Positions 12,038 through 13,833 of a DNA stretch of 64,000 nucleotides are shown here, piece by piece. This DNA is from Halobellus captivus (GTDB lineage: Archaea; Halobacteriota; Halobacteria; Halobacteriales; Haloferacaceae), in assembly GCF_007655485.1 (NCBI RefSeq), contig NZ_VJXQ01000002.1:369183-433182 (forward strand). The letters run 5' to 3'. The notes beneath the pieces were generated by a model. That model was not told where the DNA came from, did no database searches, and saw nothing but the letters and a program-made list of their open reading frames with translations. Each line of letters opens with the position of its first letter. Position 1 is the first letter of the stretch. The translations under genes and the position numbers were made by a program.

Positions 12038-12355
12038 TCAGGACTCGCGCCACTTGTGGCCGCACTCGACGCAGGTGAACAGCCGAACCTCGTAGGAGCC
12101 GCCCGGCTTCGGCATCATCTCGTAGTAGGCTCGGTCGCTGTCGCAGTCATCCGCCGGACAGGGCTCCTGCATCGTCTCGGTGGTGCCCTGGGTCGCGTCG
12201 GCCACGGCGGGTGCTCCGTCGTCCCGCTGTACATCCCGGGTCGCCATCGCCGTTTCTGCTTGCGAGTCCCGCGGCTCTTCGTTCGCACAGGAGCGACACA
12301 CCCACGTGTCACCCGCTGTGTGCATCATCGAACCACACTCAACACAGAATTGCAT
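12038..12355 (-). CDS. TFS-like zinc-ribbon protein lacking the acidic cleavage motif
   Basis: The frame is open to 12487, but the ATG at 12355 gives the expected 105-residue TFS size and starts directly with the N-terminal ribbon MQFCVECGSMM...VCRSC. TFS resembles TFIIS and the RNA polymerase subunit Rpb9 and stimulates RNA cleavage by paused archaeal polymerase through an Asp-Glu pair in a hairpin of the C-terminal ribbon. Here that ribbon reads CPADDC...KPGGSYEVRLFTCVECGHKW. Counting back from the cysteine after LFT, the Asp-Glu positions are Gly-Gly. The first metal pair is spaced CX4C instead of CX2C. The fold should persist but cleavage activity should not. Sulfolobus TFS4, which inhibits polymerase and lacks these acids, is a known parallel. 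Some of the surrounding DNA is low in GC. Confidence 0.85.
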   Translation of the reverse strand: MQFCVECGSMMHTAGDTWVCRSCANEEPRDSQAETAMATRDVQRDDGAPAVADATQGTTETMQEPCPADDCDSDRAYYEMMPKPGGSYEVRLFTCVECGHKWRES

Positions 12356-12453
12356 ATAACGGAGGAATACATCGTTGTCGGATATATGTGTTAACTTCCG
12401 ACCCATCGTGGAGTTCACGCAACTGCTCATACTGACTGACTTGAGTGATCTAC

Positions 12454-12468
12454 TAATCTTGATTCCAC
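12454..12468. repeat. 15-bp direct repeat, left copy
   Basis: TAATCTTGATTCCAC occurs here and again at 13705-13719. The two copies bracket a low-GC segment with two small genes. Confidence 0.6.
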
Positions 12469-12556
12469 GTCTATTTCGTCGAATCAACCGAGAGAAGGAA
12501 CTTGCTTATTGAACACCTGATTCACTATTTTCAACGCGAAGCAAACGAAGTCGGTA

Positions 12557-12583
12557 TGCTGAACTCACGCTCTGTATTCAGCA
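12557..12583. repeat. Inverted repeat TGCTGAA / TTCAGCA
   Basis: Perfect 7-bp arms lie at 12557-12563 and 12577-12583 with 13 bases between. It is in the AT-rich spacer between the TFS-like gene and the 12703 gene. It may be a hairpin or a remnant of a mobile element end; no open frame supports the latter. Confidence 0.4.
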
Positions 12584-12671
12584 CGGCTCCTAAAACACAT
12601 CACCGCATAAGGTTTCAACAAGGCCGAATACTTCTATGAGAAATTCTGGTTTAGACAGTTCTGCAATGATC

Positions 12672-12702: not shown

Positions 12703-13116
12703 ATGGTCGTTGATCTCATTAGGGTTTTCTCAGGAACCCGCTCAGAGACGGTTTTCTTACCACCTGCCTTACTCGGATATATCTCTTATTTAAAACAGGA
12801 TTGGCAGATGTTTCTTGTCACAGCAACAGTGGTCGTTGCCGCTGCTGTGATACACGATATAGCAGAAGAAATCGAAAATACCGATGGCGATGACGAGACA
12901 GTCAAATTCGAGATAAGCTCGCATTGGGTGCCTCAAACAGCTATCCGAGTCTCTCTAGTAATATACGGAATCTCAAGTATCGCTCTTGTCCCTGTTCTAG
13001 TCGTGTATGAGTTTTATCAAACATATAATCTCTATCTCGGTATTGGAATTTTCTTGTATCTCATTTTGGGAGTAAAGCTCCTGAGGCCTGTTAAGCGGTA
13101 TCGTGTGTTAGAGTGA
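12703..13116 (+). CDS. Hypothetical low-GC membrane protein (137 aa)
   Basis: No family is recognised. Four hydrophobic segments are visible (about residues 18-30, 36-52, 79-103 and 109-125), so it is probably an integral membrane protein, with an acidic loop EEIENTDGDDETVKFE after the second. The codon use is clearly richer in A/T at third positions than that of all neighbours, which points to recent acquisition. A TATA box sits at leaderless spacing. It faces away from the TFS-like gene. Confidence 0.7.
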   Translation: MVVDLIRVFSGTRSETVFLPPALLGYISYLKQDWQMFLVTATVVVAAAVIHDIAEEIENTDGDDETVKFEISSHWVPQTAIRVSLVIYGISSIALVPVLVVYEFYQTYNLYLGIGIFLYLILGVKLLRPVKRYRVLE

Positions 13117-13273: not shown

Positions 13274-13573
13274 TTACGCAGACGGTTGTTGAGCTGGCTT
13301 CTGATCGACTAACTCAACCTCGGTCAAATCGGGACGGTTCTTTAAACCAGCCTCCGTCATTATCTCACGCATTTCCTCGGATTCGAAGAAAGCACGAGGG
13401 TCTTTGTTCTCGTCCCATTCGAAGAGGACGACCACATCGTTTGGGTTATCCACTGACTGGAAGACCTGATAGCCACGTTCTCCATGTTCAGTGCGGTATG
13501 GCTCATTATCGTGGAACGCCGATTTCCACTTCTCGAAGTCCTCTACAGGAGATTTACCGATCAGGTACGTCAT
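13274..13573 (-). CDS. Small dimeric alpha-beta barrel protein, monooxygenase-like
   Basis: This 99-residue protein has the strand-helix pattern of the antibiotic biosynthesis monooxygenase / dimeric alpha-beta barrel fold: an N-terminal strand MTYLIGKSPVEDFEKWKSAF, a central strand DVVVLFEWDE, then a helix and a final strand TEVELVDQ. Such proteins bind small molecules or act as cofactor-free oxygenases. No substrate can be read here. A TATA-like sequence on the minus strand (about 13607-13614) lies 34-41 bases upstream. Codon use is moderately AT-rich, as in the 12703 gene. Confidence 0.7.
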   Translation of the reverse strand: MTYLIGKSPVEDFEKWKSAFHDNEPYRTEHGERGYQVFQSVDNPNDVVVLFEWDENKDPRAFFESEEMREIMTEAGLKNRPDLTEVELVDQKPAQQPSA

Positions 13574-13704
13574 TTTCTACACCAACAATAATGTAGGATT
13601 TGAGCGTGTATAAAGATAGCGTGACCGACAATAGCGAAGGCATCTCTCGGAGGATGTAGCTTCTGGTCTGACCGGTAGATGATCTCCTGTATTGACCGAT
13701 TCAA

Positions 13705-13719
13705 TAATCTTGATTCCAC
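13705..13719. repeat. 15-bp direct repeat, right copy
   Basis: This is identical to 12454-12468. Both copies also lie roughly 100-145 bases upstream of minus-strand gene starts (TFS-like and 13573), so a shared regulator site is an alternative to an insertion scar. Confidence 0.55.
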
Positions 13720-13833
13720 TCCCCTTTGGTAAATCATCTGATAGAACTGACCTGCGTACTGATAGTCGATAATTGCTCAAACGTTTACTTGAGCTTCGAG
13801 AACCCCTTTCCGTGACCGTAATGACGGTACTGT

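Follow-up and report, generated by a model that had tools for sequence, protein, structure and literature searches.

A mobile haloarchaeal TFS paralog without the catalytic Asp-Glu pair, a candidate regulator of RNA polymerase

A stretch of 64,000 nucleotides from Halobellus captivus (contig NZ_VJXQ01000002.1, positions 369,183 to 433,182; hereafter the window) encodes a two-ribbon protein of the TFS/RPB9 type that lacks the catalytic Asp-Glu pair, which we call TFS-GG. It belongs to a family found in many haloarchaea, in which the missing acids have been replaced by a new and almost invariant hairpin tip. Our analysis suggests that TFS-GG is a travelling RNA polymerase regulator that seems not to have been described. 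The multiplication of tfs genes in Halobacteria was mentioned, without being characterised, in the paper on TFS4 (PMC5715097), and our search of open-access text found no paper on such a TFS paralog in haloarchaea. The gene and its parts are located in the window as follows.

12038..12355, minus strand: TFS-GG gene, 105 amino acids, ATG start at 12355-12353 and TGA stop at 12040-12038; homologs share this length and start
12269..12355, minus strand: N-terminal zinc ribbon, residues 1-29, with Cys4, Cys7, Cys20 and Cys23
12041..12166, minus strand: C-terminal zinc ribbon, residues 64-105, with Cys66, Cys71, Cys95 and Cys98, placed by an AlphaFold2 model and by matches to the RPA12, RPC11, RPB9 and TFIIS ribbons
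12086..12112, minus strand: hairpin tip PKPGGSYEV, residues 82-90, in place of IRSADESET
12098..12103, minus strand: Gly85-Gly86
12356..12415, minus strand: promoter region that accompanies the gene in the majority of mobile copies, from column conservation over 90 loci

The translated protein (MQFCVECGSMMHTAGDTWVCRSCANEEPRDSQAETAMATRDVQRDDGAPAVADATQGTTETMQEPCPADDCDSDRAYYEMMPKPGGSYEVRLFTCVECGHKWRES) keeps all eight cysteines and the CGHKW end, in agreement with the original prediction, which had described the C-terminal ribbon in these terms. The N-terminal ribbon matches PF02150 (Zn_ribbon_RPB9) at 4e-10, and the C-terminal ribbon gives a weak match to the TFIIS ribbon. Over residues 2-104 the archaeal TFS model TIGR01384 (TFS_arch) matched with 6.8e-11 and 42.8 bits, below its cut-off of 64.75, while the TFS4 model NF047723 gave 29.2 bits, far below its cut-off of 120. 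When we searched PDB sequences, the best matches were RPC11/RPC10 and RPB9 chains. AlphaFold2, run with 45 family members, predicted two ribbons in a single-chain model of modest confidence (mean pLDDT 72); the hairpin strands cover residues 76-82 and 89-95, and the linker at 33-56 is disordered. The fold matched chains of RPA12, RPC11, RPB9, TFIIS and TFS4 with modest Z values of 4-5.5 over the small ribbon, and such a predicted fold cannot by itself separate TFS from RPB9. A longer reading frame from a TTG at 12487 was rejected, since the homologs start at the ATG and the conserved promoter lies inside the extension.

The original prediction had placed Gly-Gly at the positions of Asp-Glu. 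With the alignment anchored at the last cysteine pair and TFS1 of the same genome (QIRSADESETRFFTC) as the reference, the acids were indeed absent, but the register was different: Asp corresponds to Gly86 and Glu to Ser87, and the Gly-Gly pair covers the Ala-Asp positions, with the Ala of the TFS1 tip aligned with Gly85. The hairpin of TFS-GG is one residue shorter than that of TFS1. Acidic residues at the tip in another register had been considered in advance; none is present at residues 82-88 in either register, and the nearest acid is Glu89, which is aligned with the Glu of 'SET'. The tip retains 1 of 9 positions of the closest TFS1, against 12-13 of 14 in the stretch that follows it, made up of the last strand and the knuckle, and 24-25 of 30 in the N-terminal ribbon, indicating that the change is concentrated in the tip, together with an altered linker.

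TFS-GG is not the sole TFS of its genome, as a search for further copies with Asp-Glu found two. TFS1 (L001, C1:469323-469634) is 52% identical to TFS-GG, and TFS2 (L002, C12:361673-361990), with KQTGSADEPPTRFFKC, is 35% identical. Both canonical paralogs were also present in all five of the other genomes checked. The haloarchaeal genomes that we examined usually contain two canonical TFS types, with tips ending in ADESET and ADEPPT. A Pfam TFIIS match at C18:9443 of the same genome proved to be NrdR and not a TFS.

At a match threshold of 1e-32, TFS-GG was found in 107 of the 292 near-complete haloarchaeal genomes that represented the class, and in 43 of 76 genera. When 60 relatives were searched with the whole protein, some of them proved to have intact homologs of 69-90% identity beside the two canonical paralogs, and 18 haloarchaeal plasmid records contain a copy of more than 80% identity. 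In addition, 80 loci from named genomes were gathered with motifs that contain the tip; the statements on conservation rest on the whole-protein searches instead. In these searches, the intact homologs share a PKPGG-S/A-Y/F-E-V-R tip with few exceptions, such as PEPRGS in L198, so the lost acids are due neither to chance nor to a local error. No part of the protein is more strongly conserved across the family than the tip, PKPGGSYEVRLFTC. In a set gathered without the tip motif, the amino-acid-changing difference (pN) was 0.012 for the hairpin, 0.07 for the N-terminal ribbon, 0.11 for the linker and 0.12 for the rest of the C-terminal ribbon at similar synonymous difference, and the median dN/dS of all pairs was about 0.23. 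Moreover, 12-14 of 14 hairpin residues are identical even where the remainder is 49-70% identical. The low hairpin pN and the near-identical hairpin of divergent copies indicate that the new tip is under selection, and from these sequence comparisons we regard it as a selected replacement, not decay. As a separate observation, the longer protein at L165 (G007:C5:111272-112021) has a TFS-like C-terminal ribbon with the tip LRSIDEPPTRLLSC and is another divergent TFS relative.

The original prediction that the gene encodes a TFS paralog was borne out by the tree, in which TFS-GG forms a single clade (100/100) nested in haloarchaeal TFS1, with the short sequences limiting the resolution. The nearest TFS1 proteins have the same CX4C spacing in the C-terminal ribbon and the N-terminal ribbon motif CGSMMHTxxDxWVCRSC. 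In five genomes of one family and three genera (G161, G338, G324, G315 and G331), TFS-GG lies directly upstream of canonical TFS1 on the same strand with a gap of 70 to 355 nt, and these tandem copies stand at the base of the TFS-GG clade. Read most simply, this arrangement indicates that TFS1 was probably duplicated in tandem and that the tip of one copy was then replaced to give TFS-GG. It is possible that the tandem copies are later immigrants, but this is less likely, since the nearest TFS1 genes belong to those same genomes.

We then compared TFS-GG, TFS1 and TFS2 pairwise among five genomes of different families in which all three genes are present. In almost every pair the two TFS-GG copies resembled each other more closely than did the TFS1 or the TFS2 copies, at the level of both amino acids and four-fold sites; between the Halobellus captivus genome and G056 the values were 0.15 for TFS-GG and 0.55 and 0.55 for TFS1 and TFS2. 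About 45-60 nt of upstream DNA travels with the gene, and over 90 loci the conservation falls to background beyond about -60. At 12380-12395, some 25-40 nt before the ATG, this segment contains the TATA-like core GTTAACACATATATCC, and because of this short distance the transcript is probably leaderless. The promoters of the tandem copies are unlike those of the mobile copies. Around the gene, homology stops at varying distances, 0-366 nt downstream and 2-217 nt upstream. Broken copies are common and were seen at L019, L020, L021, L153, L154, L155 and L199. Another broken copy, in two frames and partly under an 'ATP-binding protein' ORF, lies on pNRC200 of Halobacterium salinarum NRC-1 (L041, 7001-7242). 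The greater likeness of TFS-GG, the shared promoter, the variable ends of homology and the broken copies point to frequent gain and loss driven by transfer, and the sequence comparisons indicate that TFS-GG has spread horizontally with its own promoter, many copies being on plasmids. A search for a transposon of defined ends around the gene yielded no clear unit, as the limits of homology vary between pairs. The 14-nt inverted repeat on either side of the gene (11898/12621) is within chance.

The neighbours of TFS-GG are unrelated at most of the 96 loci inspected, among which neither a conserved operon partner nor a constant defence neighbour was found. PADLOC gave no match for TFS-GG or five neighbours, and the phage and viral-contig (IMG/VR) collections contained no homolog. 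These results give no support to the defence setting that the original prediction had raised. The low-GC patch that it had noted beside the gene does adjoin it in the window but is absent from the surroundings of most homologs. Within the patch are two ORFs, one for a small membrane protein (12703-13116) and one with an ABM domain (13274-13573). An imperfect 44-nt direct repeat of 73% identity lies at its edges (12436-12479 and 13687-13730), and the patch looks like an inserted segment. The segment at 12557-12628, containing CCTTGTTGAAACCTT, has copies of 75-81% identity on many haloarchaeal plasmids and, to judge from the sequence, is probably an insertion-sequence end; such ends are commoner within 1 kb of TFS-GG genes than farther off (6 of 11 sites).

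Eight plasmids of 146-540 kb contain TFS-GG and an extra haloarchaeal RNase J, and the two genes lie within 7 kb of each other in 8 of 8, with the 7 kb limit set post hoc and the plasmids possibly sharing ancestry. We thus treat this association as a lead, not as a demonstrated system. Genes for RNase Z, aCPSF1 (the archaeal termination nuclease), eIF1A, DUF5786, amphi-Trp and macro-domain proteins recur nearby, and a TBP gene was seen once. Regions with additional copies of RNA-processing and transcription genes (RNase J, RNase Z, aCPSF1, eIF1A, TBP), accompanied by DUF5786, amphi-Trp and macro-domain genes, were observed on the plasmids NZ_CP098520, NZ_CP096663, NZ_CP100395, NZ_CP100402 and NZ_CP054710 (L125, L126, L127, L128 and L129). 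The genome of Halobellus captivus has a single RNase J, about 61 kb from TFS-GG on the same contig.

Archaeal TFS1 and TFS-GG are of equal length, and both consist of two Cys4 ribbons and a linker. They differ in the linker and in the tip, which is RSADESET with Asp-Glu in TFS1 and PKPGGSYEV in TFS-GG, and while archaeal TFS is universal, TFS-GG is patchy, mobile and below the TIGR01384 cut-off. TFS and TFIIS push Asp-Glu through the funnel of the polymerase, holding a second magnesium for RNA cleavage (PMC5715097). Since the ribbons are kept, the acids are missing and other TFS genes with Asp-Glu are present, a polymerase-binding, cleavage-incompetent factor is the natural reading. TFS-GG would bind RNA polymerase at the TFS site, with its C-terminal ribbon in the funnel and its N-terminal ribbon on the lobe/jaw, where it is expected by analogy with RPB9 and TFS4 (PMC8448823). 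Without Asp-Glu the second metal site would be incomplete and TFS-GG would not stimulate RNA cleavage, and with the rest of the protein kept it should act as a competitor of TFS1 and TFS2, which it would antagonise or tune. The rescue of backtracked polymerase would be altered, as with TFIIS D290A/E291A, a cleavage-dead form that is dominant negative in human cells (PMC11122683). In that protein, as in TFS-GG, both acids are removed and the rest is intact, but it is a eukaryotic laboratory mutant, whereas TFS-GG occurs in nature and its tip is both new and conserved. We infer polymerase binding, absent cleavage activity and TFS antagonism from what the protein has kept and lost, and consider the chances that this mechanism is right to be about even.

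Other readings have to be weighed against an antagonist or tuner of TFS. RPB9, RPA12 and RPC11 have the same two-ribbon architecture and provided the best PDB structure and sequence matches. The C-terminal ribbon of RPB9 stays outside the funnel, and that of TFS-GG could lie there as well. TFS-GG would then be a stably bound, RPB9-like factor with its C-terminal ribbon outside the active site, altering processivity, start-site choice or fidelity and not cleavage. RPB9 is also without cleavage activity (PMC5715097), and RPB9 chains are among both the fold and the sequence matches. However, the closest relatives of TFS-GG by far are haloarchaeal TFS1 proteins, the hairpin has almost its full length, and the tip is the most conserved part, pointing to work at the tip, so that we find this reading rather improbable. 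RPB9, RPA12 and RPC11 are stable subunits in every cell of their lineage. TFS-GG, in contrast, is accessory and the paralog of a reversible factor, and its patchy distribution argues against an obligatory polymerase subunit. Fixation of the new tip exceeds the needs of a blunt dominant negative. The tip may contribute an activity of its own inside the funnel, such as holding the trigger loop or the 3' end of the RNA in place, and TFS-GG would then be an elongation or anti-backtracking factor. A simple loss of function would not demand an almost invariant tip in divergent copies, but an inert plug could equally need a fixed shape, and a positive activity seems unlikely to us.

The original prediction had compared the protein with TFS4 of Sulfolobus (NF047723, PDB 7oqy), and the comparison stands as far as the lost acids are concerned: both are full two-ribbon TFS paralogs in which Asp-Glu is gone and all zinc ligands are kept. 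The tip, the hairpin length and the origin all differ. The TFS4 hairpin is much shorter (7 vs 15 tip residues), with three lysines and a basic C-terminal ribbon, and its inhibition needs the lysine tip, as the AAA mutant is inactive (PMC5715097); its C-terminal ribbon is located at the funnel rim (PMC8448823). In contrast, TFS-GG has a near full-length neutral tip with the single Lys83 (PKPGGS), a net acidic C-terminal ribbon and an independent haloarchaeal origin, and relative to TFS1 its hairpin is shortened by one residue, against eight in TFS4 by the published tip-swap boundaries (PMC5715097). TFS4 is thus a functional analogy only. A global inhibitor that shuts the polymerase down under stress or virus infection has its sole tested natural precedent in TFS4 (PMC5715097, PMC8448823), and the weak NF047723 match of 29 bits agrees with it; this score is far below 120, there are no defence neighbours and no PADLOC match, and together with the different tip this makes such a role quite unlikely. 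That TFS-GG is a decaying pseudo-paralog without function is hardly credible: although broken copies exist in several genomes and on pNRC200, the gene is intact in more than a third of the genomes at the threshold used, the tip is nearly frozen, and the purifying selection described above already contradicts it.

A wider form of the antagonist reading is that TFS-GG is a travelling cleavage antagonist, derived from a tandem duplicate of TFS1 in one haloarchaeal family, with a PKPGGSYE hairpin and its own promoter. Moving through both chromosomes and megaplasmids, in some cases within an island that also contains additional genes for RNase J, RNase Z, aCPSF1, eIF1A and TBP, it would allow mobile DNA to retune host transcription and RNA turnover. 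We put this forward tentatively, as a possibility that may well prove wrong.

Database records label these genes either 'RPA12/RPB9/RPC11 family' or 'DNA-directed RNA polymerase subunit M', and the latter label is misleading for TFS-GG. TFS4 of the Sulfolobales is the tested natural example that we found of a TFS paralog turned against the polymerase. If our reading is true, TFS-GG would be a second, independent natural TFS paralog turned polymerase regulator, with a tip unlike that of TFS4, spreading by gene transfer and present in roughly one in three of the sampled haloarchaea. Polymerase regulators would then have arisen recurrently from factors that gave up cleavage but retained the funnel domain. 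Since Haloferax species, which have good genetics, carry TFS-GG, the cellular role of a cleavage-dead cleavage factor is directly testable.
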